64,000 bases of DNA from positions 1 through 64,000 of the forward strand of contig JAVJSV010000002.1 in NCBI GenBank assembly GCA_040219235.1. Direction: 5' to 3'. The notes beneath the pieces are model-generated. The model saw nothing but the letters and a program-made list of their open reading frames with translations. It had not been told where the DNA came from and made no database searches. A program made the position numbers and the translations under genes. Of this stretch, positions 3,523-41,433 are shown one piece after another. Numbering within the stretch: the stretch's first letter is position 1; each line of letters starts with the position of its first letter. The DNA is from Rhodospirillaceae bacterium. GTDB taxonomy: Bacteria; Pseudomonadota; Alphaproteobacteria; Rhodospirillales; Rhodospirillaceae.

Positions 3523-4335
3523 CTAAACTGTTAAGCTGTGAAGATAGCCGGCCACCTTCTCGACCCAGATTTTTGGGTGGGTATCAGTGATATCCACACC
3601 GCCACCTTCGATTTCGATATAGGTAAAATGCGGGCAGAGCTGCATGGTCTTTTCGGCCAGCGGGTAGAGGATGTCGCCAGTGTTAAACAGGGCCAGGGTT
3701 GGCTGTGTGACCTTCTGCATAGCAGCGGCGCCATCATAGTTAAAGGCGGCATGGTGACCATACCAAAATGGACCCCGCCCGATGAGAGGCTGCACCACAT
3801 AGCCGGTACAAAGATCGAGCCCGTCGGGCTGATCTTCGACCCACTTCAGGCGCTTCACAAACATATCTGAGAAGTGTGAACCATCGGCTTTGGGGGCAAA
3901 GTTTTTTTCTTCTTCCAGCACGGTATCGATATAGCTTTGCTGCTCTTCCCGGCTCATGGGGCCAGGCCCGGACAACACCAGAGACCGCACCCGATCCGGA
4001 TAAGCGATGGCGGCTTCCATGGCGATTTTACAGCCGGTGTGGTGGCCGCCAGCATGGGCCGAGGCCAGCCCAAGGTGATCAAGCACGGCAGGAATAGCCT
4101 TGGCATAATCGGGAATAAACGGCGGCTGGGATGGCGGGTCAGACATGCCAAACCCAGGCGTATCAATGCCGATGGTGCGGATGCCAGCTTCGGCCAACAG
4201 CGGATAGACCTTATCGAATTGACGACTCGTTAAGGGCGACTGTGAGCATAAAATCAAAGGCGCGCCATCGCCGCCGCTGTCTTGAAAATGAAGTTGGCCG
4301 AACGGGCCATCAGCGTATCCACGTCGCAAAGTCAT
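3523..4335 (-). CDS. Alpha/beta-hydrolase-fold protein with G-H-H-T-G elbow (paralogue 1)
   Basis: A cytoplasmic 270-aa alpha/beta hydrolase fold; ATG at 4335 follows an AGAAGG Shine-Dalgarno. The N-terminus RGYADGPFGQLHF, the SQSPLTS oxyanion region and the TPGFGMSDPP loop fit the fold. The nucleophile elbow reads G97-H98-H99-T100-G101, so His stands where Ser, Asp or Cys is expected. An acidic residue follows strand 7 (NTGD). At the canonical catalytic-His site (GGGVDI, where GH-x-x is usual) I see Val, although His occurs nearby in TDTHP. Two paralogues with the same elbow lie at 38055-38846 and 40450-41433. It is the last gene of a minus-strand run that includes an amine oxidase. Substrate and even hydrolase activity are uncertain. 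Confidence 0.8.
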   Translation of the reverse strand: MTLRRGYADGPFGQLHFQDSGGDGAPLILCSQSPLTSRQFDKVYPLLAEAGIRTIGIDTPGFGMSDPPSQPPFIPDYAKAIPAVLDHLGLASAHAGGHHTGCKIAMEAAIAYPDRVRSLVLSGPGPMSREEQQSYIDTVLEEEKNFAPKADGSHFSDMFVKRLKWVEDQPDGLDLCTGYVVQPLIGRGPFWYGHHAAFNYDGAAAMQKVTQPTLALFNTGDILYPLAEKTMQLCPHFTYIEIEGGGVDITDTHPKIWVEKVAGYLHSLTV

Positions 4336-4402
4336 CGTTTTAAACCTTCTTAACTAGCGCTCACCTTGGTTCGAGAATTTCTTGTTGGGGCCTCGGTCGT
4401 GG

Positions 4403-4509
4403 AACGAGCCCATGCACAACTGGTTCCGCTCAAACGAGCCCATGGACGTATGATCGGAGGAACGAGCCCATGGAACACCCCAGACGCACCCCCTTGTAAC
4501 GAGCCCATG
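4403..4509. repeat. Four direct copies of AACGAGCCCATG
   Basis: The 12-mer AACGAGCCCATG occurs exactly at 4403-4414, 4433-4444, 4461-4472 and 4498-4509, with start-to-start spacings of 30, 28 and 37 bp. All lie in the 249-bp gap upstream of the hydrolase start at 4335. They could be an iterated regulator-binding site or the remains of a degenerate minisatellite. The bases between copies are not conserved. Confidence 0.85.
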
Positions 4510-4549
4510 CACCAAAGTATTTCCCGGAAAACAGAGAATTCACTTGAAA

Positions 4550-4569
4550 ATAACAATTTATATTGTTAT
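4550..4569. promoter_or_regulatory. Inverted repeat ATAACAAT-N4-ATTGTTAT, candidate operator
   Basis: Perfect 8-bp arms (4550-4557 and 4562-4569) are separated by TTAT. The element lies just after the VOC gene stop and upstream of the hydrolase gene, beside the AACGAGCCCATG repeats. Its AT-rich symmetric form suits a dimeric winged-helix regulator such as a MarR-type protein. The stem lacks GC and a following T-run, so a terminator for the VOC gene is less likely. Confidence 0.5.
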
Positions 4570-4584
4570 GGTGTCTTGCGATGA

Positions 4585-5226
4585 TCATTCAGGGATGTGT
4601 CGAATGGTGGGTTCGACTTTCTTGAGGAAGAGCGGCATGGGGTTTGACTCGGCGACAAACAGACCCACGCCATCTGCATCTTTCATCCAGAAACGTGTCA
4701 TGCGTCCGGCGGCGGTGCGTTCGCCCTCTTTGACAATCACATACCCGTCCTCAGCGGCGGCAGCTTTGACCTGGTTGAACGCCGCATCTGCGTCGGGCGT
4801 TAAAATGAACAGACCAATCGCCCCATAGGGCTTGCGCGCCGTCTCAGGAATGGCCGGGGCCTCAGGCTTCTTGATATGGGGCGCGATCAGGGCGAGATAG
4901 CTTGAATTGGCGTTGACCTGATCACTGTCCAGCGCCGGACGCAGCACTTCAAAGTCCATCGCTTCACCGGGCTCAAAGCCGAGCGTCCATTCCAACACCG
5001 GACTGGCCACATTGCGCAAGCTCTCGCTCAGACGCATCCCAAAGATGTCGCGGTAAAGTTTCAACGATACATCAACGTCGCGCACCATGATGGTTGAACG
5101 CCACGCGATTGCGCTCTCCAGCTTGGGCTCTGTTGCCGGCCAGGATGGCGGCGTCATGGTCATGGTTTGGGCGTTGGCTTGGCTGGCACATAAAACCATC
5201 ACGACAGCCGTCAAATATGTCTTCAT
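4585..5226 (-). CDS. Exported VOC (glyoxalase/dioxygenase-fold) protein
   Basis: 213 aa with an N-terminal signal peptide (MKTYLTAVVMVLCASQANAQ), so it is probably periplasmic. The VOC fold is shown by IAWRSTIMVRDVDVSLKLY followed by RDIFGMRL and by the C-terminal half TRFWMKDADGVGLFVAES, where the two beta-alpha-beta-beta-beta modules end. VOC proteins bind a metal and act as lyases, isomerases or dioxygenases; the substrate cannot be read from the sequence. The start ATG at 5226 has AAGGAG eight bases upstream. It lies 44 bp downstream of the nitrilase-fold gene in the same direction, so it is probably in one operon with the genes up to 8848. Confidence 0.75.
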   Translation of the reverse strand: MKTYLTAVVMVLCASQANAQTMTMTPPSWPATEPKLESAIAWRSTIMVRDVDVSLKLYRDIFGMRLSESLRNVASPVLEWTLGFEPGEAMDFEVLRPALDSDQVNANSSYLALIAPHIKKPEAPAIPETARKPYGAIGLFILTPDADAAFNQVKAAAAEDGYVIVKEGERTAAGRMTRFWMKDADGVGLFVAESNPMPLFLKKVEPTIRHIPE

Positions 5227-5270
5227 GTCCGTCTCTCCTTGTGCGCGCGATATTTTCTTATGCCACGCCC

Positions 5271-6557
5271 TTATGCCACACCGGGGGCTTTCAAGACGCC
5301 GCGGTCCACCAAGCTCTTGATGGTCTCACGCAGCAGGTCATCGTGCTCACTGGCGTCCTGAATGGGTGTGTCTGTGAACGCCCCGACGGGGGCAAACTCA
5401 GCCGCATTGTAGGTCAGGCGATGCACCGGCACCTGCAGCGCGCCCAACGTGTTCTGCGACCCCAGACCGGTGCGCGCCTGACGCAGGGCATCAATATCAA
5501 TGGTCGCGGTGATGAAGCCTTCGCCGCCATCTTCGGCTGCCGCCATTAGTTCACCACGAAAATCGATAATCTCTGACGGTTGCCGGGGTGAAACCTCCGC
5601 TGTTTCATCCTCGCCCACCGGACCTAAATTTGACAGCAGGACATAGGCCATGTTTTCGGACGCGCGAACACGGCGGGTCATGGTGCTGACGCTTGGACGC
5701 ACGGCACCCGGAAACTCCGGCGACGCGGTCGGATTGACAATCAGCTCGGCCCCTTTGAGGGCAAACCCGCGCATAACTTCGGGCTGTTTGACGTCCAAGG
5801 CCACCATGCTGGCGAGCACGCCGATCTCTGTGTCCGCCACCGGAAACAGACTGTCCTCGCCAAAGGCGTCCAACCAGGCGGGAAGAATATCGCCCGGGCG
5901 GGTTTTCACTGTCGGGTCATTGAGTTTGCGATAATTGACGATGAGATCGCCGCTGGGAGAAATAATCATACCGCTGAGAAAATAACGGCCTGGGAAAGCC
6001 GCAATGCGTTCGGCGGCGTTGATGGCGACAAAGGCGTTTGCTTTTTGCGCGGCCCGGCCCAGCTGTTCGATCTCCGGGCCGTTGGCCTCAATGGAGCCCT
6101 TGATCCATTCCTCGACACCGGCGCCCGCCGGGGCCGGCTGCAAGCAGAACTCAGAGAAGGAATACAACTTCGCGCCAACCTCGTCCGCGCCGCGCTCAAT
6201 CCACGCTGCCACCCGGTCAACATTGGTCTGCAAACCATCAGGACGGAATTTTCCATTGCTGTCAAAGGCGGGCGTCGCGACCGTCTGCACACAGGCGGCG
6301 CGGTACAAAGGCACTTTAGGCCCCGCCGCCTCGATACCCGGCTTGACATTTATTTTTATACCACCGTAACGCCCGGCATCTTCATCACTGACGGGTTTTT
6401 CATCTGCTGCCTGAGCCGCACGGCCACCGGTCGCCGCAAGCGCGCCGACAGACAGACCCGCGCCGGCGAACAAAACATGGCGGCGTGTTGGGTCGTTCCG
6501 GCTTGCATCGTTCAGTGTTGCATCACTCCGTTTTGACTCATTTTTTTGTGAGGTCAT
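5271..6557 (-). CDS. Tat-exported carbon-nitrogen hydrolase (nitrilase) fold protein lacking the catalytic Cys
   Basis: 428 aa. A long N-region, a twin-arginine motif (TRRHVLF, R25-R26) and a hydrophobic stretch ending GRAAQA indicate Tat export. The nitrilase fold is clear: the Glu site SFSEF (E136), the Lys site NYRKLNDP (K211) and the segment IGVLASMVALDVKQPE, then GAELIVNPTA. In active nitrilases and amidases the last segment carries Cys just before the x-Asp pair (CYD-like); here the position is Ala253 (VALD). The DNA codon is GCC, so this is not a translation slip. Either the protein is catalytically dead, or it works as a binding protein or by another chemistry. Neighbours are VOC and CpeT-like exported proteins and an amine oxidase. 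Confidence 0.8.
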   Translation of the reverse strand: MTSQKNESKRSDATLNDASRNDPTRRHVLFAGAGLSVGALAATGGRAAQAADEKPVSDEDAGRYGGIKINVKPGIEAAGPKVPLYRAACVQTVATPAFDSNGKFRPDGLQTNVDRVAAWIERGADEVGAKLYSFSEFCLQPAPAGAGVEEWIKGSIEANGPEIEQLGRAAQKANAFVAINAAERIAAFPGRYFLSGMIISPSGDLIVNYRKLNDPTVKTRPGDILPAWLDAFGEDSLFPVADTEIGVLASMVALDVKQPEVMRGFALKGAELIVNPTASPEFPGAVRPSVSTMTRRVRASENMAYVLLSNLGPVGEDETAEVSPRQPSEIIDFRGELMAAAEDGGEGFITATIDIDALRQARTGLGSQNTLGALQVPVHRLTYNAAEFAPVGAFTDTPIQDASEHDDLLRETIKSLVDRGVLKAPGVA

Positions 6558-6596
6558 GGGACCATCCTTTAATGTGGGCCTTTTGTGTCAGCGGGC

Positions 6597-7325
6597 TTAC
6601 TGAACGCGGTCTAACTTATGGAAGTTGAAGTTGGCCATGGTCATAACCACAGTCCCGTCGTCCAAGCGGACAATTTTGTCGCGGAACCAAAAAGAACTGC
6701 CGTCAATCACGGCTTCATAGCTGAAAGCCTGGCCGCCAAAGGCACAGGCGTTTGTGCGCATGGGCATATGATAGGCGTTACCGCGTTGATCGACGATCAA
6801 ATCGCAAATCTCTGGAAATGCGGAAATGTCGTCCGGGGTCAGACCCTCTAACATAGACAGGTCTTTATACGCCCCGATGTATTTTTCCCGGTCTTTGAAG
6901 TTGATCAGGTTAACGCGAATGACTTCTTCTTCCTGATCAATGGTGAGATTATAGATACGTTGGCGATAGGTCTCACTCGGATCACCATCGCGATACTCTT
7001 CAACGTACAAAACATTCTCACCCAATGCTGGAAAATCGATGCGGGCGTAGTGAGAGGTGACGTTAAGATAGCCGCCCATGCCGGAGTTATCGACGCGCCA
7101 CACTTCACCAGTGAAGTTATCTTCGCCCATGCGCGCTTCGACCTCTGCCACCTGTTTGTCGTTGTTATAAGTGCCGGGCCACCAGGTCATGATCTGTGCG
7201 AGGTCTTGCTCCAGCGGGCTTTGAGCCTGAACCGGGGCGGGTGCGAGGGCTGCCCCGAGTGTAGCCCCAAGCGCAACCCCACACGCAGCCAAGACGAGTG
7301 CTCTGTAGTAAGTGCGTAAACTCAT
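6597..7325 (-). CDS. CpeT/CpcT-like exported protein
   Basis: 242 aa with a signal peptide (hydrophobic stretch ending in APVQAQ). The body has the CpeT/CpcT pattern: an N-terminal WWPGTYNNDKQ, then PALGENVLYVEEYRDG and the Y-R-Q-R-I-Y segment. In cyanobacteria CpeT-family lyases attach bilins to phycobiliproteins. No phycobiliprotein is present here, so the role must differ, perhaps binding a hydrophobic ligand. I prefer ATG at 7325 (AGAGGGGA seven bases upstream) over the TTG at 7331. The gene starts 41 bp after the amine oxidase stop and probably belongs to that operon. Confidence 0.7.
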   Translation of the reverse strand: MSLRTYYRALVLAACGVALGATLGAALAPAPVQAQSPLEQDLAQIMTWWPGTYNNDKQVAEVEARMGEDNFTGEVWRVDNSGMGGYLNVTSHYARIDFPALGENVLYVEEYRDGDPSETYRQRIYNLTIDQEEEVIRVNLINFKDREKYIGAYKDLSMLEGLTPDDISAFPEICDLIVDQRGNAYHMPMRTNACAFGGQAFSYEAVIDGSSFWFRDKIVRLDDGTVVMTMANFNFHKLDRVQ

Positions 7326-7366
7326 ATTCAAGTCCCCTCTAGATATTCCGCTTCAGGTGTTCCGGG

Positions 7367-8848
7367 TTAGAGGCGATCAAGAACCTCAAACGCCGCCCGT
7401 TCGCCGGACTCCATCGCGCCCTCCATGCCGCGGTCGGTGGCAGAGGTATGCTCACCCGCAAAATGGATGCGGTGCCACGGTGTGGCGAGTGTTGTCGCGA
7501 ACGAAGTGATTTGACCCGGCTTCCAATAGGCATACGCCCCGCCCGCAAAGATGTTGCGGTTCCACGACCAAACCTTGACCGGTTTTAACGCCCCCCTGGT
7601 GCTGGGTCTGATCTCCGCCAGCTCTTGCATCATAAAAGCCACCGCATCATCCGGCGGCATACGATCCATGAATTTCGCCATATCGCCGTTGACGAAAGAA
7701 ATATAGCTGGTCACGTCATCGGGATTGGACGGATCATTCTTTAGCGCCATGAAGCGCCCCATACTGCGGTCGGTCCACATGCTCGGCGGCAGGCCATCGT
7801 CTTCCCAAAACTTGCGGGTCGGCACGAAGTGGACTTGAAACACCGGAGTATACCCGAGGTTCTTAACCGCATCAGACTGGGTACCCTGCAAAGACGGCTC
7901 AACAGACACAAACTTTAACGCAGAATAGGGCAGTGACGAGATGAGATACTTCGCCCGGTGAATTTCGCCGTCGCGGGTATGCACTTCCACGCCATCGGGC
8001 AGCGAGCGTATGCCGGTGACATGGGTCTTAAACCGGATTTCCGTCTTTAGGCCCGTGGCCATGGCTTCGGGGATGCGCTGGTTGCCGCCGACGCCGGCTT
8101 TTGACCCACTGCCATCGCCCAACGCACCAATGACTTGCCCCCAGGTGGCAATTTGGAACCACATTAAAACAGAGAGATCAAAGACGTTGGAGCCGTAGCT
8201 CATGTTGGTGCCAGAGCCGAGGTGTATGGCGGGATCAGGCACACCACGCGCTTTGAGGAAGTCGTAAACAGAGATGTCGTATTTGGCATACGCTGGATCT
8301 TGCCAGGCTTCTATATCGCCTTCCGGCAACGGGTTGGCCGCGCCATAGGCCGTGAACTGATAGAAATAAGGTGGCATCGCCCGCGCCGCCGGATCGACAA
8401 ACGGGTTCTTGGCGTGCCCTTCCCACTCATCGACCAGGATGTTCTCGTTATACAGGTGATACATCACTTCGCCGTCGCGCGGCTCGGTGCGGGGGCGCGC
8501 GGGTTCAAGCGCAACGCCGTAACGCGCGGCTGCATCTTTTAATCTGGCGTAGCCGCCGCCAATGCCACTGCCGCCCATTTCCGGATGACCCGGCACTTCG
8601 TTCTCGGGCGCGGTATACAATCGGCCACCAATGCGATCTGTGCCTTCTAGCAAGGTGACGGAGGCCCCCATCTCTTCGAGCAGCAAAGTGGCGTTAAGAC
8701 CGGACAGCCCGGCGCCGATCACAATGACGTCTGAAGCGTTGCGGGCATGGACAGCGCGCGGCATTGACGTGAGTGCTGCTGTCGCGAGTCCAACCTTCAG
8801 AAAGCTGCGCCGGTTGGCGGTGTACGCCTTAAAGTCTGACTTTTTCAT
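7367..8848 (-). CDS. Tat-exported FAD-dependent amine oxidase
   Basis: About 493 aa. A Tat signal (NRRSFLKVGLATAAL ... AVHA) precedes a Rossmann FAD site, VIVIGAGLSGLNATLL, with the acidic end LLEG and the R-I-G-G-R motif of flavin amine oxidases. The C-terminus has the second FAD contact, RIHFAGEHTS, and MEGAMESGERAA. Such enzymes oxidise amines or amino acids to imines with release of H2O2; the substrate is unknown. The ATG at 8848 is preceded by GTGGAG; a GTG at 8860 would add four residues. It is the first gene of the minus-strand run 8848-3523 and faces the divergent DUF305 gene across about 150 bp. Confidence 0.85.
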   Translation of the reverse strand: MKKSDFKAYTANRRSFLKVGLATAALTSMPRAVHARNASDVIVIGAGLSGLNATLLLEEMGASVTLLEGTDRIGGRLYTAPENEVPGHPEMGGSGIGGGYARLKDAAARYGVALEPARPRTEPRDGEVMYHLYNENILVDEWEGHAKNPFVDPAARAMPPYFYQFTAYGAANPLPEGDIEAWQDPAYAKYDISVYDFLKARGVPDPAIHLGSGTNMSYGSNVFDLSVLMWFQIATWGQVIGALGDGSGSKAGVGGNQRIPEAMATGLKTEIRFKTHVTGIRSLPDGVEVHTRDGEIHRAKYLISSLPYSALKFVSVEPSLQGTQSDAVKNLGYTPVFQVHFVPTRKFWEDDGLPPSMWTDRSMGRFMALKNDPSNPDDVTSYISFVNGDMAKFMDRMPPDDAVAFMMQELAEIRPSTRGALKPVKVWSWNRNIFAGGAYAYWKPGQITSFATTLATPWHRIHFAGEHTSATDRGMEGAMESGERAAFEVLDRL

Positions 8849-8996
8849 AGCTGTCGTCACTCCACGGTCGCGGAAGAGGTCTTTAACTTATCCCAAGGAA
8901 GGGCGTTCGAATAGACAGCATTGCGGGAACTCTTCGCCTGTTATTTCGTTGAACACGCAAGACGGTAAAATTGTCGTTATTTTATAGGAGCCCGCG

Positions 8997-9521
8997 ATGC
9001 GCGAGACCCAAAAAACCTACGTACGTTTTTTTAGCATGATTGCCACATCCATGGCTGTGATGTTTGGACTGATGTATCTTAATTCCTACGAAATGGCGCA
9101 TGTGCGCTGGAGTGAGACACGGTTTTACATGACCCTCATTATGGGAGCCGGCATGGCTGTGGTGATGTTGAGTTTCATGCTGGGCATGTATGAGAATTCC
9201 AAAGTTAACGCCTTGATATACGGCGGCAGTGTGGTGGTTTTTTTGGCCTCACTGTGGTTGGTGCGCAGTCAGTCGACCGTTGATGACACCTCCTGGATGA
9301 CAGCCATGATTCCGCATCACTCCATCGCCATCCTGACCAGCGAACGGGCAAATATCGACGATGCACGGGTTCAAGCTCTCGCCACCGCCATCATCGCGGC
9401 GCAACGGCGCGAAATTAAAGAAATGGAATGGATGCTCAAAGACATTGAAGCAAACGGCGTGGCCAAAACTGCAGCAGAAGCCGCAGCCCGCCCGGTCCCT
9501 AATTTTGAAGTCAATAAATAG
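8997..9521 (+). CDS. DUF305-type membrane protein
   Basis: 174 aa. Three hydrophobic segments (about 12-30, 43-65 and 72-90) are followed by a soluble domain of DUF305 type, with W-M-T-A-M-I-P-H-H and a helical EIKEMEWML end. DUF305 proteins have His/Met-rich four-helix bundles and often sit next to copper-handling genes; metal binding is inferred here. AGGAG lies six bases before the ATG. The glutaredoxin-MauE gene follows 25 bp later, so the two are likely co-transcribed. Confidence 0.75.
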   Translation: MRETQKTYVRFFSMIATSMAVMFGLMYLNSYEMAHVRWSETRFYMTLIMGAGMAVVMLSFMLGMYENSKVNALIYGGSVVVFLASLWLVRSQSTVDDTSWMTAMIPHHSIAILTSERANIDDARVQALATAIIAAQRREIKEMEWMLKDIEANGVAKTAAEAAARPVPNFEVNK

Positions 9522-9546
9522 AAGTCAGCACATAGAGGTTTCGACA

Positions 9547-10296
9547 ATGACGAATACGACCGCCCCGATCCAGGCCGCTACAGTGTATCGCATGGTGACG
9601 GACGAGCACATCTGTCCGTTTGGACTGAAAACCAAGGACCTGATGGAACGTCAGGGGTTTAGTGTAGAGGACCATTGGTTGGAAACGCGCGACCAAGCCG
9701 ATGCCTTTATGGACAAACACGACGTGAAAACCACGCCGCAGGTGTTTATCGGCAACGAGCGGATCGGCGGTTACGAGGCGGTGCGAAAGTATTTTGGTAT
9801 GGCTGTCAGGGATGAGGATGCAACCACCTACAGACCAGTTATCGCCGTGTTTGCTATGGCCGCCTTAATGGCGCTGGCAGTGAGTTGGGCGGCTTTCGGG
9901 TCTGTATTTACCGTGCGGGCTGTGGAGTGGTTTATTGCCATCAGCATGTGCATTCTCGCCATTTTAAAACTGCGGGACCTGGAAAGCTTTTCAAATATGT
10001 TTTTGGGCTATGACCTGCTGGCGCGGCGGATGGTGCGCTATGCCTATGTCTACCCTTTTGCGGAAGCAGGCGCCGGCGTGCTTATGGTGGCCGGGGCGCT
10101 AACCTGGGTATCGGCCCCGGTTGCGTTGTTCATCGGGACCATCGGTGCCGTGTCTGTTTTTAAAGCCGTCTATATTGATAAACGAGACCTAAAATGTGCC
10201 TGTGTTGGCGGCAACAGCAATGTACCCCTCGGCGTTATCTCGCTGACTGAAAATGTAATGATGATCGCCATGGCACTCTGGATGCTCTCAAAATAG
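9547..10296 (+). CDS. Glutaredoxin-MauE/DoxX-like membrane fusion protein
   Basis: 249 aa, starting at the ATG at 9547 behind AGAGG. The open frame extends further upstream, but that part overlaps the DUF305 gene and is not protein-like. Residues about 10-85 form a glutaredoxin domain with active site CPFG (C23), a monothiol form, and the glutathione-site signature TTPQVFIGNERIGGY. After residue 95 come four membrane segments typical of MauE/DoxX-like proteins, with a Cys-rich loop KCACVGGN near the end. MauE helps form disulfides in methylamine dehydrogenase, so a membrane thiol-redox role is likely, perhaps for copper or periplasmic protein maturation together with the DUF305 protein. Confidence 0.8.
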   Translation: MTNTTAPIQAATVYRMVTDEHICPFGLKTKDLMERQGFSVEDHWLETRDQADAFMDKHDVKTTPQVFIGNERIGGYEAVRKYFGMAVRDEDATTYRPVIAVFAMAALMALAVSWAAFGSVFTVRAVEWFIAISMCILAILKLRDLESFSNMFLGYDLLARRMVRYAYVYPFAEAGAGVLMVAGALTWVSAPVALFIGTIGAVSVFKAVYIDKRDLKCACVGGNSNVPLGVISLTENVMMIAMALWMLSK

Positions 10297-10432
10297 CTCT
10301 GAACGTTTTTGCACGCGTCGAAGCAATCCTAGTGTGACGGAAGAGTCCTTATGTGACGGAACATTGTATGGCGACCGGCGTTTAAACAGTACGCAACAAC
10401 AAAATTTCAATTGAATGCAAAGGTTCCGAACG

Positions 10433-10651
10433 ATGACTGGGTCTGATCCCCGAAAACCAAATTCACCGGTTCAACCGCCCACGCAACCCGAGCCGGTCAA
10501 AGATCCGACACGACCTCCTCCGCAGCCGCCCTCTGTGCCAGACGAACCACCGGTGAAACAACCACCGCCTGATGAGAAGCCGCCTAAGCCTCCTAAACCG
10601 CCGGTGCCACATGACCCGCCGATCACAGAACCGCCGCAACCTAGACTCTAA
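10433..10651 (+). CDS. Small proline-rich protein
   Basis: 72 aa from ATG 10433 (AAAGG nine bases upstream); an in-frame ATG at 10415 lacks such a site. After MTGSDPRKPN the protein is almost wholly Pro with Asp, Glu, Lys and Val (PPKPPKPPVP, DPPITEPPQP), so it is probably extended and disordered. No signal peptide or membrane segment is seen. Similar short Pro-rich proteins are widespread in Proteobacteria with no known function. Confidence 0.5.
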   Translation: MTGSDPRKPNSPVQPPTQPEPVKDPTRPPPQPPSVPDEPPVKQPPPDEKPPKPPKPPVPHDPPITEPPQPRL

Positions 10652-10866
10652 CAGTAAGGCTGGTGCTGATAGTTTGGGCTAAAGGCTGGGGCAGAGATTG
10701 ATGGGAACAAAAACGCGCACAGATCGTTCGTTTTATTAAGAGGCCAGCCTGTCTGACGGTCTCGTTAGACCGCGCCGCTCGCGCTTTAATGACATGCACT
10801 CTCGCAGTGTCATTTCGCGCACGTCACTGGTTATATTTCCAACGGAAAAAAAGAAGGAGTTACGTT

Positions 10867-11016
10867 ATGTCTCAAGACCCAAAAGATCACGCTGGGGAGA
10901 AAACACCATCTGAAATTCGACAAGGCGAAAAGGGGCACGGGGTGCGCTACGTTCTGGTCATCTCTCTTGTAGGCGCACTTGTTCTGCTGTTCGTCGTGAT
11001 GGCGGTTTTGGGTTAA
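10867..11016 (+). CDS. Single-span small membrane protein
   Basis: 49 aa from ATG 10867, which has a strong AAGAAGGAG Shine-Dalgarno. A polar N-terminus rich in Lys and Glu is followed by one membrane helix (YVLVISLVGALVLLFVVM) and ends at VLG. This suits a small inner-membrane protein with its N-terminus in the cytoplasm. The function is unknown. The frame is open upstream to 10789, but that part has no ribosome site. Confidence 0.55.
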   Translation: MSQDPKDHAGEKTPSEIRQGEKGHGVRYVLVISLVGALVLLFVVMAVLG

Positions 11017-11205
11017 CAGATAGACCTGCACACAAACAATGAGTGTTTTAACAACTTAAAGTCTGTAAGTGTGTATGGCTGAAAATCAGACATGAGACAC
11101 CTAGCGGGGTCGTTGCACGAGAAGTGTCGTTGCATAGGCTTGGGTCTCAATTTAGTGTAACCTGATGTCTTAAACCTGCTCCCGCCAGATCGAGATACTC
11201 GCCCC

Positions 11206-12453: not shown

Positions 12454-12488
12454 GTCCTGACTCATTTCATATGGCGTGAAGGCCTGAC

Positions 12489-28565: not shown

Positions 28566-28576
28566 CTTCAAACTCC

Positions 28577-30895: not shown

Positions 30896-30899
30896 AGAG

Positions 30900-31853: not shown

Positions 31854-31999
31854 TAGAGGTTTTGTGATGTGTGAGATGGTCTTTGCCGGACAGAACTGCA
31901 GAACGGATTAGATCACCTCGACACGACTTCAGATGACGCAGTTTTGTAAGTGGAAAAATTGTTCGAAAGGCATTGTCTGGAAATAGATTAGCACGGTCG

Positions 32000-33544: not shown

Positions 33545-33689
33545 GCCTATAACTTCTCGCACTGTTAAATTCCTCTCTATGAGCAACTTGTCACTTAAGA
33601 GCACCGGCAATGGCTAGACATAATTTTTTAATACATCGACATTTCTGTCGCAGAAACTGCCGCTCTGTCGCCCTTTTCCACAAAGAGCT

Positions 33690-34073
33690 TTAGTCATCCG
33701 CTTCGGGATCTTTCTTTTTATCCGTCAACCATTTGAAATGATTTTGATCTTCGGGAATCTCTGTGTCGGGATAGAGGCAACCGTAGATACGATTGACAAA
33801 ACGAAGACGCTGCTCCTCAGCGTTTTTTCCGAATTCTTCGTCTGGTTTGAACGTCTCAATAAGATCAGGTGTGACGACGCCTTTGGTAGCAAGAAGCTGT
33901 TCCATCACCATTTGCCGGTCGCGATTGGTCCATATTTCGCCGCCCAGCAACAAAACAATCTCCAACAGCTTGTCAATCATCGGGTCTTTAAAATACTGAG
34001 GGTGCGTTTTATCGAACCCGGGCAGGTCTTTAACGTATTCAGTTTCCGCCTCAACGGCTTTCGGATCGCCCAC
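33690..34073 (-). CDS. Small protein coupled to a methyltransferase
   Basis: 127 aa from GTG 34073. The Shine-Dalgarno AAGGAGG overlaps the stop of the upstream methyltransferase, so translation is coupled. The sequence is hydrophilic and mostly helical, with a hydrophobic helix IDKLLEIVLLLGGEIW, then RQMVMEQLLATKGV and FKWLTDKKKDPEADD at the end. It has no signal peptide or membrane span. I do not recognise the family. The tight coupling suggests a partner subunit or shared pathway with the methyltransferase. Confidence 0.65.
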   Translation of the reverse strand: MGDPKAVEAETEYVKDLPGFDKTHPQYFKDPMIDKLLEIVLLLGGEIWTNRDRQMVMEQLLATKGVVTPDLIETFKPDEEFGKNAEEQRLRFVNRIYGCLYPDTEIPEDQNHFKWLTDKKKDPEADD

Positions 34074-34084
34074 CAAATCCTCCT

Positions 34085-35185
34085 TTACACCGGTTTATCG
34101 CACACACGCCCATAGACGAGAATGTCCTCGGGATCTTCGTATCGTAACGTGAATCCCAAATTGCGGAGTTTGTCTTCGATGTTACTGCGGACAAATTCTG
34201 GTGCGTAAGGCTCGCTGTTGTCGGCAGAATCGATAGAGCCAAGCAAATCGGTATACTTAAGTCCTTTTTGATCTTCTTGAAGCGTCGGAAAATCTGAAAT
34301 CCAGAAGGTCCCCCCTGGGCGTAACATGCGATAAACATTAGCAATGGTCCGATCAACCACCGGGGTCGGCACCTCATGAAACAAGATGTGCACTGTTACT
34401 AAGTCATAATGATTTTCCGGTAACTCATCCAAATCTTCGCCGGCTTTCTGGAGAAAATGAACGTCGACATTTTGCTCAGCTGCACGGTAATGCGCATACC
34501 TAACCATCGGCGCAGATATGTCGCTACCCCAAACTTCTGCCTCTGGAAACTTGTGTTTGAGCTGGCACGTCAGTTTGCCAACCGCACACGCAAGGTCCAT
34601 GACACGCTTAACCTTACCATCTTTGGGAACAGAGATTTTCTCTGCCATGGCTTTATGGAGATAGTCGTCCTTAGTGACGTTACCTGCAAAAATGCGGTTT
34701 CCATAGTCATAGCGCAGGCCGGCAAGAGGGTGCCCGACATAGCCATCATTTTGGCGATGGGTTTCAACCTTGGTATAGTTTGGGTAAACGTAATTGGGAT
34801 CCCAGGTGACTGACCCCGGCCCTGTTTTATCGGACTCCTCAAGAAGGCGGAGGAATTCTTCCTCGCGCAATCCGTAAGACTCAGAAATGCGATTCCAAAA
34901 GGCTTCTTGTGTCGAACGATAGACCCGCGCCCAAACGCCAGCATCCGGCACTTTTTCACGGACCACCTTTCTTACCGCTTCAACTGACTCCTTTGTTGGC
35001 TCGATGGCGATTTTTTCTTCTTGAATTGCCTCATTCGCTTTGGGATGGACGTGCTTAGCTCTGCCCCATAGCAGAACACTGCGTAGGTCCTTAACGTAAT
35101 TCAAAAATGTTTCATCCGCCCGGGTCGTCATGGCGGGTGTTGGCCCGACCTTGCCACGATCTGGATACTGATTACTTAAAGCCAT
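34085..35185 (-). CDS. Class I SAM-dependent methyltransferase with N-terminal helical domain
   Basis: 366 aa, cytoplasmic. The first ~190 residues are helical. The methyltransferase domain has motif I VMDLACAVGKLTCQL, the acidic residue in WGSDISAPMVRY, then AGEDLDEL and VTVHILFHEVP, and ends with a phenyl-type beta strand region TFWISDFPT. It looks paralogous to the protein at 11206-12453. It is the first gene of a run with the small protein at 33690 and perhaps the binding protein at 32000. The substrate is unknown. Confidence 0.75.
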   Translation of the reverse strand: MALSNQYPDRGKVGPTPAMTTRADETFLNYVKDLRSVLLWGRAKHVHPKANEAIQEEKIAIEPTKESVEAVRKVVREKVPDAGVWARVYRSTQEAFWNRISESYGLREEEFLRLLEESDKTGPGSVTWDPNYVYPNYTKVETHRQNDGYVGHPLAGLRYDYGNRIFAGNVTKDDYLHKAMAEKISVPKDGKVKRVMDLACAVGKLTCQLKHKFPEAEVWGSDISAPMVRYAHYRAAEQNVDVHFLQKAGEDLDELPENHYDLVTVHILFHEVPTPVVDRTIANVYRMLRPGGTFWISDFPTLQEDQKGLKYTDLLGSIDSADNSEPYAPEFVRSNIEDKLRNLGFTLRYEDPEDILVYGRVCDKPV

Positions 35186-35510
35186 AATCCGTCTCTCCGA
35201 TCACCGTTAAAGAAACTATATCTGTCACTAAGACTGGCATGGAAAGAGCCCTGATTTCCAATTTAAATTTTGCAAATTAAAGTTTCCGATCTGTATCCCT
35301 GGCCGTATCAGTGGAACACGCCCTAAAGTGGTGCCATTCGTCGAAAGAGATTTCAAATCAGACACGCCATTACTTGCGTGGACAATGATAAATTTCTTTT
35401 ATTGGTGATTAGCATTACTAGGGTTTTATTGCCCAATAGGGCTTACCTACACTGCGAGCGCTGCTTACATTAATCTACCGACGTGACGGCGATAAAACGG
35501 GAGAGGTTTG
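35186..35510. other. Divergent intergenic region, no gene seen
   Basis: This 325-bp gap separates the minus-strand methyltransferase from the plus-strand hydrolase. It is AT-rich on both sides and holds a short inverted repeat GCCC-AATA-GGGC near 35430-35445. Promoters for both directions must lie here, but I cannot mark -35/-10 boxes with confidence. The hydrolase Shine-Dalgarno GGAGAGG ends just before its ATG. Confidence 0.5.
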
Positions 35511-36515
35511 ATGCGCTTCAAAGACCTATGTACAGCTGCTTGTGTGGCGCTCAGTGTGGGTGCGACCTCTGCCCATGCGGCATCAACACCGGTGCCAAGC
35601 CTTCCTTTGGATGATCTAAGAAAGACCTACAAACTACCCAACTCACAGTTTGTCGATCTTGACGGCGTCAGCGTTCATTACGTTGATGAGGGCGAAGGAG
35701 ATACAATTATTCTACTTCATGCCTCTTATCACAGCCTGCGGTCATGGGATCCGCTTGCTGCTCTTCTGAAAGATAAATTTCGTATTGTGAGGTTTGATTT
35801 TGCTAATGCGGGCCTAACGGGACTCGACCCAAAGCAACAGAACTCCATAGAACGCAACATAGACCTGCTTGAACGCCTCATTGAGAAATTAGACCTTAAA
35901 CAGTTTGCCCTGATCGGCACCTCAAGTGGCGGCGTCGTTGCCTTTAGATACACTGCCGTCAATACGGACAAAGTGAACAGGATGGTTCTGATCAACTCCG
36001 CCGGACTGCCCAGAACACCTGAGACCAATCCGCTCGGCGACCCTGGCTCTGAAACACGGCAACGCATAGAGGAACTCAACAAACCCCGATCGTATTGGCA
36101 GGGGCTACTCGATAACACCTTTAGAGGGGGACACACGCCCCCCGCGTGGATGGTGAATATGGCCTACGATATGAACCGCCGCGAGGGCCTTGGCGAAGAA
36201 CTGCAACGCTACACCCGGGCGTATCGCACCGGCGATCCACAAATGCTGTTGAGCCAAATCACATCCCCCTCCCTGATTATCTGGGGCATGAACAACCCAA
36301 CCGTTGTGCATCTGGAAGCGGAGGTGTTCCAACATTGGCTGACAAACGCCCCATCTCTTATCCGCAAAATACCGGATACGGGGCATTATCCCTATGTGGA
36401 AGAGCCCGAAATTTTCGATACGCTGATAACCGATTTCCTAACCGGCGCATTGGACGGCGACTTGCGTCAAACCGTCATGACTCCGATGAGTCAGATGGAC
36501 AAAATTAAAGAATAA
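35511..36515 (+). CDS. Exported alpha/beta hydrolase with canonical catalytic triad
   Basis: 334 aa from ATG 35511 with GGAGAGG upstream. A signal peptide (ACVALSVGATSAHA) indicates periplasmic location. The fold is standard: IILLHASYHS oxyanion region, nucleophile elbow G-T-S-S-G with Ser, and a C-terminal His in PDTGHYPYVEEPEIF. This sets it apart from the three His-elbow relatives in the window. It starts an apparent operon with a flavoprotein (17 bp downstream) and a His-elbow paralogue. The substrate is unknown; esterase, lactonase or dehalogenase-like activity is possible. Confidence 0.85.
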   Translation: MRFKDLCTAACVALSVGATSAHAASTPVPSLPLDDLRKTYKLPNSQFVDLDGVSVHYVDEGEGDTIILLHASYHSLRSWDPLAALLKDKFRIVRFDFANAGLTGLDPKQQNSIERNIDLLERLIEKLDLKQFALIGTSSGGVVAFRYTAVNTDKVNRMVLINSAGLPRTPETNPLGDPGSETRQRIEELNKPRSYWQGLLDNTFRGGHTPPAWMVNMAYDMNRREGLGEELQRYTRAYRTGDPQMLLSQITSPSLIIWGMNNPTVVHLEAEVFQHWLTNAPSLIRKIPDTGHYPYVEEPEIFDTLITDFLTGALDGDLRQTVMTPMSQMDKIKE

Positions 36516-36532
36516 GCTCAGGAGCGAACAGC

Positions 36533-38053
36533 ATGGCAGAACGAAAAGTCCCAAACCTTTTCAGAGTGGATTACGACGCCGGCCCCGAAGGACCGCCACA
36601 ACAACTGGGTTTAGAGAGCGCAGCAGCGGCAGACCGCGCCTGGGACGTCATCATCATCGGTGCTGGTTCTGCCGGTATGCCCGCTGCGCTTTTTGCGGCA
36701 AAACGCGGCGCGAAGGTTTTGGTGATTGAACACTCTGGTGCAGTTGGCGGAACACTGCGACTGGCACCCGCGCAAATGAGTGCCGCCGGGACCAAGTTAC
36801 AGAAATCGCTGGGGATAGACGATACACCGGAAGAGCATTTTGCAGATGCCATGCGAATCAGCCGCGGTACGATCAATCAAGACCTCGCGAAACTGGCGAT
36901 CTGGAACGCGGGAAAGATGTTCGACTGGCTTATGGATGGTGGCTTCGACATGATGCCAGAGTGCCCGTCAAAGGGGAACACACATGAGCCGTTCAGCAAG
37001 GCCCGCTATTACTGGGGCCGCGAATTCGGTCGATCCATCTTGAAAGTCGTTGAACCGCAGCTCATGGAGGCCGTGAAGACGTGCGACCTGACGATTCTTC
37101 TGCGGCACGAAGCTTTGTCCTTGCTCCAGCAGGACGACGGCACGGTGACCGGTGTGATCGCAAAGGATATTGAAGGTGTTGAACGCTCTTACACAGGGCG
37201 GAGCGTGGTCATTACATCGGGCGGATATGCCGCCAACACAACCATGTACGAAGAACTGTCGGGCCAACCACAATATCAAAAATGGTGGTCGCCCTTCAGT
37301 CAGGGACGAGGCCATCAACTTGGCCTCTCTGCCGGTGCATACCTGCGCGGCATTGAGAACTTTATGGCCAGCTTTGGCATTATATTGGAGTCTGATCAAT
37401 ACCCAGCGAAGGCACTCGGACGGCCCAACAGCTATCCAGAAGTGCGGCAGCCTTGGGAGATCTACGTGAACGCGCTTGGTCAACGGTTCGTGTGTGAAGA
37501 TTTACCGAGTGTGGATGCTCGTGAACATGCCCTGCTTAAACAACCCGGCATGCGGTATTGGGTCATCTTCGATCAAGACATTTTAGACCAAGCCCCGCCG
37601 GTGGTAGAAGGCTGGACCCAAGACCAAGTCAAAGACGCCTTCGGCTCCACCTATTCGTTTTACAAAGGTCAAAGCCTGGCAGAACTGGCGGCGGCCGCCG
37701 GAATTGATGCCAAGGGTCTGAAGGATACAGTCGATCTTTATAACTATGGCATTGGGGCCGGACATGATGTGTTTGCACGAAAACACAGCCCGCTGCCCAT
37801 CGGCAAACCGCCATTCTATGCCATACGGGCGCAAGGTTGTGCGATTACGGGCGCAGCTGGATTGGCCGTGGACAATGACCTTAGGGTCATACGGCGCGAT
37901 GGATCGGCAATCCCAGGGCTCTACGCTGCCGGAGAAATTCTTGGTGCTGGGGTGTTACAGGGCAATGCCTACGTCGGTGGCATGATGGTGACGCCGGCCT
38001 TAACCTTCGGTAAATTGCTTGGTGAGAAAATTCTCCCCCTTGGTAATCAGTAA
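36533..38053 (+). CDS. FAD-dependent oxidoreductase (fumarate reductase / ketosteroid dehydrogenase-like flavoprotein)
   Basis: 506 aa, cytoplasmic, no signal peptide. The FAD Rossmann motif WDVIIIGAGSAGMPAAL is at about 38, with the acidic end VLVIEHSGAVGGTL. The C-terminal FAD site is GLYAAGEILGAGVLQGNAYVGG. A substrate-binding cap lies in the middle. Members of this family reduce or dehydrogenate C=C bonds next to carbonyl or carboxyl groups. It sits between two alpha/beta hydrolases, which suggests stepwise breakdown of a cyclic or ester substrate. Confidence 0.85.
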   Translation: MAERKVPNLFRVDYDAGPEGPPQQLGLESAAAADRAWDVIIIGAGSAGMPAALFAAKRGAKVLVIEHSGAVGGTLRLAPAQMSAAGTKLQKSLGIDDTPEEHFADAMRISRGTINQDLAKLAIWNAGKMFDWLMDGGFDMMPECPSKGNTHEPFSKARYYWGREFGRSILKVVEPQLMEAVKTCDLTILLRHEALSLLQQDDGTVTGVIAKDIEGVERSYTGRSVVITSGGYAANTTMYEELSGQPQYQKWWSPFSQGRGHQLGLSAGAYLRGIENFMASFGIILESDQYPAKALGRPNSYPEVRQPWEIYVNALGQRFVCEDLPSVDAREHALLKQPGMRYWVIFDQDILDQAPPVVEGWTQDQVKDAFGSTYSFYKGQSLAELAAAAGIDAKGLKDTVDLYNYGIGAGHDVFARKHSPLPIGKPPFYAIRAQGCAITGAAGLAVDNDLRVIRRDGSAIPGLYAAGEILGAGVLQGNAYVGGMMVTPALTFGKLLGEKILPLGNQ

Positions 38054-38054
38054 A

Positions 38055-38846
38055 ATGGCGGTGAAAGAACATCGCGGTTATGTGGATGGAAAATATGGAC
38101 TTATGCACTATCGCCAGTATGGCGAAGGCCCCCCTCTTCTATTAATTCATCAGACTCCCTGGTCCTCACAGCAGTACAAAAACGCTGCACCCTTTCTGGC
38201 AGGCAACTGCCGGGTCATTGCGCTGGATAGTCCTGGATATGGAGAATCTGACAGCCCGCCGGACGCCCCGAGCATTCCGGATTATGCGGATAGCATCCCC
38301 GGCTTCCTGGACGGCTTAGGTATAGTTCAAGCTGATGTCCTCGGACATCACACAGGCGCACTGATTGCTGGGGCATTTGCCGCGCGTCACCCGACACGAC
38401 TCAACCGACTCATTCTGCACGGCGCACCTGTGTATGATGAAAGTGAGAGAGTGCAGCGATTGAACAACAAACATTTTGATCAGAGCCCCAAGGAAGACGG
38501 GAGTCATTACCTGGATTACTGGGCTCTTCTTCAAAGAGTCATTGGCCCGAACGCTAAATTGAGCGGCCTTCATATGGGCGTCCTGAGCTTTTTTACAAAC
38601 GGCGAGAAAGAGTGGTACGGCCACACGGCAGCGTTTACCTATGATTTTGCAGCAGACATACCGTCGATAAAATGCCCCACGCTGGTTGTTTCAAACACAG
38701 CGGACATGCTCGCGGCCCACGCTGAAAGACTACGCGGCTTGAGACCTGACTTTGACTATGTGGAAATTTCCGGTGGAAGTTCAAACATCATCTTTGATGA
38801 GCCGAAAAGATGGGCAGACCCGATTACGGCTTGGTTGACCACATAG
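38055..38846 (+). CDS. Alpha/beta-hydrolase-fold protein with G-H-H-T-G elbow (paralogue 2)
   Basis: 263 aa from ATG 38055, one base after the flavoprotein stop; a longer frame from 38019 overlaps that gene. The N-terminus HRGYVDGKYGLMHY matches paralogue 1. The elbow is G97-H98-H99-T100-G101, again with His at the nucleophile site. The acid site is NTAD. At the catalytic-His region it reads GGSSNIIFDEP, with no His. Thus the standard Ser-His-Asp triad is absent. It ends 26 bp from the convergent binding-protein gene. Confidence 0.8.
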   Translation: MAVKEHRGYVDGKYGLMHYRQYGEGPPLLLIHQTPWSSQQYKNAAPFLAGNCRVIALDSPGYGESDSPPDAPSIPDYADSIPGFLDGLGIVQADVLGHHTGALIAGAFAARHPTRLNRLILHGAPVYDESERVQRLNNKHFDQSPKEDGSHYLDYWALLQRVIGPNAKLSGLHMGVLSFFTNGEKEWYGHTAAFTYDFAADIPSIKCPTLVVSNTADMLAAHAERLRGLRPDFDYVEISGGSSNIIFDEPKRWADPITAWLTT

Positions 38847-38872
38847 ATAAACAGCGCTCTGGGCTGGGGTAT

Positions 38873-40399
38873 TTATTGTCCGTTCTTCAAGCTGACCAAG
38901 TCATACTGAATGCCGCGGCTGGTGAGCGCGATGCCATCGACGTTTTGGCCTGCAGCGGCAAACTCTGCACCCGTCACAAGCCAAATTGCTGGGGCGATGT
39001 CATGGAGCATGGCCATAAGGTCTTGCAACAACGCTGTACGCCGTGTGGGATCCATCTCAACTGATATTGCATTCAAGAGCCGTTTGGTTTCTGGCGCGCA
39101 GAAAAAAGGCTGTGCCTTCAGGCAGCCCGTGTAAGTCTCTGCCCGGATGCCGTCATAGTACGCACTGTTATCCCACGTCAATGAAAACGCATCGATGTCA
39201 TCCCATTGATTGGTCAAAAACGCTGTGAGCCAGTTGGCGTAGGGTATCGACCGCAGTTCAACCTTCATCCCTATGGCTTCTAAGTTCTGGGCGACGAATT
39301 GGAACGCCAGAGAATCACCACCAGCGATTCCCGTTGCGACCTGGATTTTTAGAATGCGGTCAAAATCAAAATCCGCCTCTTCTAACAGAGCCCGGGCACG
39401 CGTTGGATCGAAGGGCCAGGGTTTGACTTCTGGATTGTGGCCATTGACACCGGGCACTGCGCCTTGGCCTGAAGCCAACACCTCCCCCTGATAAAGATTG
39501 TTTACGATGGCCTCTCTATTGACCGCCAAATTCATCGCCTGTCGCACCCGCCGATCTGCGACCGGGGATGACTCATTACCAATCACCCGAAAAGCCAAAC
39601 CTGACACCCCTGGTGCTGTTCGCGTATAGGTCTGGAATTGCTCGCCTTTCAGCTGACTCACATCGTCGCTGCTCATTTGCTCAGCGACATCGACTTGGCC
39701 CGAGCGGAGCGCTTGCATACGCGCAACAGGGTCCTGCATGACAAATATTGTCAGGTCATCAATAGCAACAGGTGCCCGCCAAGAGCCAGAGAAACCGCGA
39801 AAGTGGACGGTTCCAGCACCCCATTCTTCAAGCTGAAAAGGACCGCTACCAATTGGTTCTTGCGCAAAGCTGTCGACACCACGATCTGCCAGTGCGCCCG
39901 GCGGAAGCATCCACAGGAGGCTGGCTCGACGATGCAAGATCGGATCTGGTTTCTCGGTCTCTATCAGAACTGTCAGCGAATCAATGACTTCAACAGCAGT
40001 AATACCTTGGACCTCAGAAGCCGTATAGAAACGCGCGCCCGTCTCACTCTTCAGGAGCGCGATGGACGCGGTCACTGAGGACGCATCAAACATTTCACCG
40101 TTATGGAACCGGACACCTTGTCGCAAACGGAACACCCATTGGGTTGGCGATATAGATTCCCAACTTTCTGCCAGCGCTGGTTCCACATTGCCTTGGTTAT
40201 CAATCCGCGTGAGCGTGTCATACATCAGCGACCAGATTCCAACACCCGGCTGCGATACAGCTGTAAAGGGAATTCCTCTACTGGGTGGAATGGCGGTACG
40301 CGCAACTTTAAATGGCTCAGCAACCGCACTGTGTGGGAGCGATACACAGACCAGAATAAGTTCGGTGAACACACTCTGAATCAGAAACTTCATCATCAT
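38873..40399 (-). CDS. Periplasmic solute-binding protein (SBP_bac_5), no permease nearby
   Basis: 508 aa with a signal peptide (MMMKFLIQSVFTELILVCVS ... AVA). Family 5 features include GIWSLMYDTLTRIDNQG, VEPALAESWESISPTQWVFRL and VRFHNGEMFDA. It resembles the protein at 32000-33544 throughout. It follows the Tat-exported His-elbow hydrolase by 50 bp and may be in one operon with it and the kinase at 41503. No ABC permease or ATPase genes are nearby. Confidence 0.85.
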   Translation of the reverse strand: MMMKFLIQSVFTELILVCVSLPHSAVAEPFKVARTAIPPSRGIPFTAVSQPGVGIWSLMYDTLTRIDNQGNVEPALAESWESISPTQWVFRLRQGVRFHNGEMFDASSVTASIALLKSETGARFYTASEVQGITAVEVIDSLTVLIETEKPDPILHRRASLLWMLPPGALADRGVDSFAQEPIGSGPFQLEEWGAGTVHFRGFSGSWRAPVAIDDLTIFVMQDPVARMQALRSGQVDVAEQMSSDDVSQLKGEQFQTYTRTAPGVSGLAFRVIGNESSPVADRRVRQAMNLAVNREAIVNNLYQGEVLASGQGAVPGVNGHNPEVKPWPFDPTRARALLEEADFDFDRILKIQVATGIAGGDSLAFQFVAQNLEAIGMKVELRSIPYANWLTAFLTNQWDDIDAFSLTWDNSAYYDGIRAETYTGCLKAQPFFCAPETKRLLNAISVEMDPTRRTALLQDLMAMLHDIAPAIWLVTGAEFAAAGQNVDGIALTSRGIQYDLVSLKNGQ

Positions 40400-40449
40400 G
40401 AACAGCCTATTTATATAGATAAGTAGAGTCGTGACTGCGCGCCGCTAAA

Positions 40450-41433
40450 TTAAGATAAGAACACTCTTAACTTCTCAGCAATTTGGTCGGCCCCAACGTC
40501 AAAGACGTCTCGTTCGAGATCAGGCAACTCAACCATTCGCACATCGGATATAAATGCGGCGGCCTGCTTCGAATACTCTAAAAGGTTTTCGTGGGGCTGA
40601 ACGATCAAGGTCGGCTGTGAGATCAGCGGAAAACGTTCAGCAACGTCGTACGTCCAGACCCCACGATAAGGCCACCAATACCGATCAAGCGGCTTGGCCT
40701 TCTCCACAAAAACCTCGGCCGCACGCTCCAACGGGACGCGGCGATCGCGTTTGCTGACCACAAAGGTCCAAAGGCGCTCTAACTGCCCCATGATATCTTT
40801 ACCGTCTTCCGTAATGCGGGGCCGCGCTTCAATAGCGGCCAATCGCTCCAGTCGCTCTTCAGGCGTGCGGAACGGTATGCCTGAGATGGCAAGGCGGCCA
40901 ACTTTTTGTGGTTGAGCAATCGCCAGTTCTGCAGCGAGAAAACTACCGGTGTGGAACCCAAAAACATCGACAGGAGTTTGCCCACCGAGATTGAGACTCT
41001 CAATGCCATCCGCAAACGCAGTTGCATATCCGGCCATATCCATCGGCTCCGGGGGCCAATCAGACATGCCGTTTCCAGGCGTATCAAAAGCGACAACCTC
41101 TCGGTCTGTAGCCATTTCTCTGATGAGCGGCTCATATTCCACAGACGAGGACGGGTTCTGATGCAACAGCACCAACGATGGCTTTTCTGATCGTCCAGAG
41201 GTGGGCAAACCTCGAATGAAGTGCAACTGTCCAAACCTGCATTCTGTATAACCACGCTTAACGGAAATCCCATCAACTGAAGTTTTTTGAGTCACGCCAG
41301 AACCTTCCGATGACTTTGTATTCTGCGCCTGCACTGAGCGAACAGATCCGAGGCCAAGGGCACCCGCAGTTAACATGAGCGCACCCGCACCAAACCGAGA
41401 TAATATCTTCCGTCGTCCGCTGAGTGTCATCAT
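40450..41433 (-). CDS. Tat-exported alpha/beta-hydrolase-fold protein with G-F-H-T-G elbow (paralogue 3)
   Basis: 327 aa. A twin-arginine signal (GRRKILSRFGAGALML ... VQAQ) sends the folded protein to the periplasm. After residue 58 the KRGYTECRFGQLHF motif matches paralogues 1 and 2. The oxyanion region is LLHQNPSSS. The elbow is G159-F160-H161-T162-G163, with His at the nucleophile site. The acid position is Glu (QPHENL). The C-terminus LERDVFDVGADQ has no catalytic His. Tat export suggests that folding or a cofactor is completed in the cytoplasm. The neighbours are a binding protein and a kinase-like protein. Confidence 0.8.
   Translation of the reverse strand: MMTLSGRRKILSRFGAGALMLTAGALGLGSVRSVQAQNTKSSEGSGVTQKTSVDGISVKRGYTECRFGQLHFIRGLPTSGRSEKPSLVLLHQNPSSSVEYEPLIREMATDREVVAFDTPGNGMSDWPPEPMDMAGYATAFADGIESLNLGGQTPVDVFGFHTGSFLAAELAIAQPQKVGRLAISGIPFRTPEERLERLAAIEARPRITEDGKDIMGQLERLWTFVVSKRDRRVPLERAAEVFVEKAKPLDRYWWPYRGVWTYDVAERFPLISQPTLIVQPHENLLEYSKQAAAFISDVRMVELPDLERDVFDVGADQIAEKLRVFLS

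Follow-up and report, generated by a model that had tools for sequence, protein, structure and literature searches.

What can an alpha/beta-hydrolase do when a histidine stands where its nucleophile should be? The question is raised by three proteins encoded in a stretch of 64,000 nucleotides from a Rhodospirillaceae bacterium (contig JAVJSV010000002.1, positions 1 to 64,000; the window in what follows), which we name by their first coordinates as 3523, 38055 and 40450. Alpha/beta hydrolases make up one of the largest superfamilies of enzymes, within which classes are distinguished by the nucleophile: Ser, Cys or Asp. The three proteins belong to a clade in which the His at the nucleophile elbow is nearly invariant. 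The Asp/Glu of the former triad accompanies it; the catalytic His of that triad may be present or absent. The clade has about 30 copies in one genome, extends over several phyla and is incapable of standard Ser hydrolysis; if active, it would represent a new way to run the fold, and if inactive, an unusually large and well-conserved pseudoenzyme family.

The three open reading frames (ORFs; Table 1) lie where an earlier reading of the window, made from sequence only, had placed them, and carry the N-terminal motifs (RGYADGPFGQLH, RGYVDGKYGLMH, RGYTECRFGQLH) and the elbows (GHHTG, GHHTG, GFHTG) that it described. They belong to the fold as defined by PF00561, with 62.6, 67.9 and 43.2 bits against a curated cut-off of 25.8, and none of the NCBIfam models listed for them comes near its own cut-off, the dehalogenase models being far under theirs (60.3 versus 241 bits, for example). 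In a four-way alignment the three elbows stand opposite the GTSSG of 35511, a Ser-type hydrolase of the window. Column 243, the site of the old catalytic His, holds Val, Ser and Arg, and the lack of His there is thus borne out for all three window proteins. The acid column reads D, D and E in the MAFFT alignment, in agreement with the earlier reading; for 40450 a hidden Markov model (HMM) alignment gives N instead, one residue off the E of MAFFT. Two relatives of 40450 (L017 and L108), read directly, have E at the MAFFT position. The cap His is absent from 40450, which has DGKD and WWPY at the cap sites, and by eye its N terminus looks like a putative twin-arginine translocation (Tat) signal (SGRRKIL followed by a hydrophobic stretch). 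The proteins of the clade are small and probably soluble. The comparison protein 35511 had been credited with a normal triad, which stands for its Ser (GTSSG) and His (TGHYP) but not fully for the acid, whose site reads GMNNP. An Asn in the acid column is likewise found in four other Ser hydrolases of the window's genome.

Several placements put the His at the position of the nucleophile. Profile alignments against solved haloperoxidases and arylesterases match the elbow His to the elbow Ser of those enzymes, D217 to the Asp and column 243 to the His, residues that we take to be catalytic there. An AlphaFold model of 38055, built with 88 sequences from the window and public loci, has a mean predicted local distance difference test score (pLDDT) of 97.2 and a predicted template modelling score (pTM) of 0.94, and passes from strand 93-98 through His99 into helix 100-111; in the model of mature 40450 (pLDDT 95.6, pTM 0.93) strand 103-108 and helix 110-121 flank the His. 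In the two of the three proteins that were modelled, a check proposed by the sequence-only reading, the predicted structures place the elbow His at the strand-turn-helix nucleophile elbow. A Ser elbow elsewhere in the chain is ruled out: 3523 and 40450 have no other G-x-[HSCD]-x-G, and the sole extra motif, GLHMG at residues 171-175 of 38055, is within cap helix 169-195. Drift and misalignment are ruled out by these models and alignments together with the masked-elbow profile described below.

With the His so placed, the familiar active sites of the fold do not describe the window proteins. The acid of a Ser-His-Asp triad is present after strand 7 (D, D, E by MAFFT), but all three have His where Ser, Cys or Asp is expected and have no catalytic His before the last helix. 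The Asp nucleophile of haloalkane dehalogenases and epoxide hydrolases is likewise replaced by His, and the arrangement of 1-H-3-hydroxy-4-oxoquinaldine 2,4-dioxygenase (HOD) places a His at the canonical catalytic position, where none of the three has one. The closest solved sequences by profile (102.9, 100.5 and 99.9 bits) have the fold and the placing of elbow and acid in common with the clade but carry a Ser elbow, a His at column 243 and, in the alignments shown, Gly and not Gln after the oxyanion His. The best Foldseek matches of the 38055 model in the PDB by E-value are entries of the cap-bearing fluoroacetate dehalogenase RPA1163 (6qhp and others; template modelling score, 0.75 for the first). 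The entry titles name Asp110 and His280 as active-site residues, unlike the elbow His of the clade. We presume that Asp110 is the nucleophile of that enzyme. The model of 40450 best matches a Pseudomonas hydrolase, a phospholipase, an esterase and an enol-lactonase, and among the residue alignments shown there is no solved relative with an elbow His.

The conservation of these residues was measured in an alignment of 135 rows, obtained from 163 BLAST hits after removal of those below 60 bits, of ORFs longer than 450 amino acids and of identical sequences; the three window proteins apparently appear in it twice, as window copy and as genome copy. Two peptide patterns that exclude the elbow gave 417 matches and 352 confirmed relatives, the best 80 of which serve as the public loci. 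The elbow His is found in 131 of the 135 rows, the other four having R, A, S and S, and its column is the joint 8th most conserved of 263. Among the 131 rows with the elbow His, the acid is D/E in 129 (MAFFT) and Gln33, which follows the oxyanion His where most Ser relatives have Gly, is present in 115; cap His151 and His190 are present in 109 and 102, counts inflated by one search pattern that spans the WYGH region. The full set of His32, His99, His151, His190 and Asp217 occurs in 82 of 135 rows. By HMM alignment of the tree rows, D/E is found in 85 of 91 His rows, and all six exceptions are in the subclade of 40450. The old catalytic-His position is His in 31 of 131 rows, which overturns the view of its absence as a family trait: that absence is not general to the clade and is probably secondary. 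The earlier statement that both Ser and His are replaced accordingly stands for the elbow, where His is the common feature, but not for the catalytic His, which some subclades have and others lack. Since elbow His and acid are strictly conserved, a function other than Ser hydrolysis, as had been proposed, is supported, although sequence does not decide between binding and chemistry.

A profile with the elbow masked separates the clade from Ser relatives by score. Of the 156 distinct domains that reach 150 bits, 152 have His, four have another residue and none has Ser; between 125 and 150 bits there are two His, three other and one Ser, and below 125 bits 47 Ser, no His, 14 other and three gaps. 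These counts refer to distinct match-state sequences from ORFs of at least 120 amino acids in the loci fetched by then. The elbow is therefore a feature of one clade, as the sequence-only reading had it. G-x-S-T-G relatives, which in equal number would have pointed to simple drift, amount to five, all below 125 bits with the full profile. The second domain of L146, which scores low (29 bits), reads His at the elbow as well, whether by chance or through descent.

The window's genome contains 39 family domains at 116 bits or more, of which 30 have the elbow His (26 of them exactly G-x-H-T-G), one has Ser (GSSLG) and eight have other residues. Eight of the nine domains without the His lie in fused double-domain proteins; five such proteins, of about 570-590 amino acids, consist of these eight plus one GFHTG and one GFHTS domain. 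The His has been lost in all five second domains, whose elbows are GRYSG (twice), GTWGG, ANGLS and GMWGG, and in three of the five first domains, as if one half of the protein had been turned into a scaffold. A further protein, L058:13922-15613, is also fused and about 560-590 amino acids long; GTHTG belongs to its first domain, the sole one scored. In L114:5635-6609 and L114:10181-11044 the elbows are GGHFS/GAHFS, with the His retained and the Thr-Gly gone.

All six other genomes of the genus contain from 38 to at least 42 matches each, and a match at 1e-30 was found in 17 of 61 genomes searched, the window's genome included. In a sample of the phylum, 17 of 299 genomes gave a match with eight candidates scored per genome; of the 16 others, the loci fetched from three (G276, G259 and G150) have the elbow His and those from the remaining 13 are Ser proteins. 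The public loci include Alpha- and Gammaproteobacteria, Chloroflexi and a Gemmatimonadota record, several of the record titles being those of metagenome bins with doubtful names, and members of the clade also occur in Betaproteobacteria and Actinomycetota. On plasmids of Novosphingobium, Streptomyces, Rhodococcus, Variovorax and Comamonas, all nine domains above 150 bits have G-x-H-T-G (seven records scored of 12 distinct records hit), and the plasmid records that annotate the clade call it "alpha/beta hydrolase" or "alpha/beta fold hydrolase" only. On the sequences collected, this is a coherent, expanded, multi-phylum clade and not drift. No description of a GHHTG/GXHXG motif or of an elbow-histidine clade was found in the literature searched, which mostly excluded subscription papers, and the His-elbow branch is apparently undescribed.

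The evolution of the clade was examined on a tree of 122 domains, computed without the elbow and active-site columns and drawn with a Ser row as root; rows below 70 bits, with more than 90 gaps or more than 70% alike to one already kept had been dropped, window rows excepted. The His proteins fall together at a node with a Shimodaira-Hasegawa-like approximate likelihood ratio (SH-aLRT) support of 98, with the exception of the GEHTG protein L107:8906, which falls outside on a weak branch. Forcing a 101-row ingroup, named after the tree had been seen, into one clade is not rejected by the approximately unbiased (AU) test (p-AU 0.799), and the constrained tree has a better fit than the unconstrained one. 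Across the whole set of 122 rows there are 11 changes of the old catalytic His, with gaps counted as absent, and three of the elbow among His and Ser rows; within the ingroup, gaps excluded, the catalytic His changes nine times, the elbow His five and the acid (D/E or not) four. The old catalytic His is kept in most of the GYHTG subclade and in one gene of a conserved tandem pair, and is missing from those to which the window proteins belong. Most simply, Ser would have given way to His first, leaving the old catalytic His free to be lost, repeatedly; the change counts in themselves give no direction. The GSSLG protein L115:4638-5591 groups with the GSHTG subclade and has no clear acid or catalytic His, a possible return from His to Ser.

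Table 1. Coordinates of the genes and loci discussed; positions without a locus handle refer to the window.
Feature	Position	Strand	Remarks
His-elbow alpha/beta-hydrolase	3523-4335	-	270 amino acids; GHHTG, His codon 4039-4041; DGSH, WYGH; acid D; catalytic-His position Val
His-elbow alpha/beta-hydrolase	38055-38846	+	263 amino acids, counted from the ATG one base past the stop of the upstream gene; GHHTG, His99 codon 38349-38351; DGSH148-151, WYGH187-190; D217; Ser243
His-elbow alpha/beta-hydrolase	40450-41433	-	327 amino acids; GFHTG, His codon 40951-40953; acid E (MAFFT); catalytic-His position Arg
FAD_binding_2 (PF00890) flavocytochrome-c/fumarate-reductase-like flavoprotein	36533-38053	+	stop one base ahead of the 38055 start
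Ser-type alpha/beta-hydrolase	35511-36515	+	GTSSG, TGHYP, acid site GMNNP; upstream of the FAD gene; comparison protein
SBP_bac_5 solute-binding protein	38873-40399	-	strand shared with 40450
Tandem His-elbow genes with type III polyketide synthase	L128:8402-11251 (own genome C5, about 68-71 kb), L031, L032, L034, L036, L040, L045		seven loci
Fused two-domain proteins of the window's genome	L136:9779-11500, L136:11485-13191, L138:9147-10928, L141:8615-10321, L112:4166-5869		five proteins

Genes for metabolic enzymes stand next to members of the clade. In the window, 38055 and the flavin adenine dinucleotide (FAD) enzyme gene directly ahead of it probably form one operon. The flavoprotein is most like flavocytochrome c, tricarballylate dehydrogenase, vinyl phenol reductase and urocanate reductase, although it does not reach the curated cut-off for any of the 25 NCBIfam models listed. 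Relatives of this protein make up the largest single cluster of close same-strand neighbours, with nine loci, followed by TonB receptors with seven; Ser-type hydrolases are neighbours in four loci and SBP_bac_5 proteins in three, members of the BLAST cluster of 38873 adjoining His-elbow hydrolases in L043 and L048. The Sphingomonas loci L053, L056 and L057 each carry a FAD gene in an operonic arrangement. Within six genomes of the same genus, at least 7 of 50 homologues of the FAD gene lie less than 300 bp from a listed His-clade gene and at least 11 less than 2 kb from one, against 0.49 and 1.04 expected under uniform placement. Tandem His-elbow genes accompany a type III polyketide synthase in seven loci, with an ICMT-type methyltransferase in five of the seven and PAP2 in four; the synthase of the window's genome best matches DpgA, at 137.5 bits versus a cut-off of 425. 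Neighbours of the gene in Variovorax and Comamonas are acyl-CoA dehydrogenase, amidohydrolase and adenylate-forming or AMP-binding enzymes. From these neighbours we infer a role in the metabolism of polyketide-like, phenolic or alicyclic compounds rather than in signalling. Further along the window, at 51083-57603, genes for a pyrroloquinoline quinone (PQQ) dehydrogenase, a TonB receptor and a tannase/feruloyl esterase lie close together, an assembly consistent with plant-phenolic metabolism.

These results lead us to propose, with roughly even confidence, that the clade consists of alpha/beta-hydrolase-fold enzymes in which a catalytic pair, the elbow His and the Asp/Glu, acts on activated carbonyl or enol compounds. 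The imidazole, bulkier than a Ser side chain, would reach or communicate with the acid where strand 7 ends, and the pair would take over the work of the absent Ser and His, serving as general base or nucleophile towards a substrate that is an activated carbonyl, enol or enone. The oxyanion region (HQxP) would hold this substrate, together with the two cap His (DGSH, WYGH) in the main subfamily. The FAD enzyme would introduce or eliminate a C=C bond adjacent to a carbonyl; the coupling of its gene to 38055 in the window argues for a shared pathway, and the two probably act in one. The large number of paralogues in each genome suggests a single chemistry that serves a variety of natural-product substrates. 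A precedent for a His/Asp dyad as general base in this fold is HOD, with a His-rich pocket and the pair His251/Asp126, which retains Ser101, whereas the clade has the His in the elbow itself (PMC5178339, PMC9040561).

A number of points weigh against this proposal. Direct contact between His and acid is assumed, and in a canonical triad the acid bonds the catalytic His and not the nucleophile. The 31 rows with a His at the old position may use three residues, and the conserved cap His could equally mean that a metal is bound. If every letter and gap is counted over the 122 rows, those with Ser among them, the acid column has 19 changes, the most of the columns counted; the six acid exceptions look like an HMM alignment one residue off, an explanation that direct reading of the sequence bears out for some of them only. 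Co-variation on the tree among elbow His, acid, cap His and catalytic His was not significant in underpowered tests (at most seven independent pairs on supported branches). The counts for the FAD gene come from related genomes and are not independent, with those expected assuming uniform placement and those observed being lower bounds. Finally, we know of no activity, substrate or solved structure for the His-elbow clade.

It is possible, if rather unlikely in our judgement, that these proteins are pseudoenzymes that bind a ligand, metabolite or partner without chemistry. Within this fold a pseudoenzyme is usually recognised by the loss of its Ser, and the many tandem genes and fused doubles are compatible with assembly. 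ABHD5, an animal lipase co-activator, is such an alpha/beta-hydrolase without Ser nucleophile or hydrolytic activity, and the accessible part of its description makes no mention of a conserved His replacement (PMC5314347). In a pseudoenzyme, however, the acid and the rest of the site would normally drift, and here the acid, Gln33, His151 and His190 persist in 129, 115, 109 and 102 of 131 rows and members adjoin metabolic enzymes. Sites of two His and one carboxylate are common metal sites, and the 82 of 135 rows with the full set of residues are what would be expected if elbow His, His151, His190 and acid held one metal ion that does the chemistry. We consider this improbable, as the elbow His is kept in the 40450 subfamily and in others where one or both cap His are missing, and a shared site would require other ligands there.

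Covalent catalysis by the elbow His itself can be imagined in two forms. In the first, a hydrolase or acyl transferase, the imidazole would attack an ester, lactone or thioester and the acyl-imidazole would be hydrolysed; the His stands where the nucleophile classically does, close to an oxyanion His that has been retained, and in designed proteins a His nucleophile can work (PMC10912507). In the clade, however, Gln replaces Gly after the oxyanion His. To our knowledge there is no natural His-nucleophile example in this fold, and acyl-imidazoles are hard to turn over, and we regard this form as a long shot. The second form, in which the His would attack an enone or activated carbonyl, as acyl-imidazole or Michael adduct, tuned by the old triad acid, is doubtful as well, though a little less so; if true, His would join Ser, Cys and Asp among the nucleophiles of the superfamily, a natural counterpart of the designed enzymes. 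We know of no homologue with an elbow His among HOD, ABHD5 and the designed proteins.

Elsewhere in the window, positions 6597-7331 encode a CpeT/CpcT-family protein (PF06206), of a family linked to phycobiliproteins.

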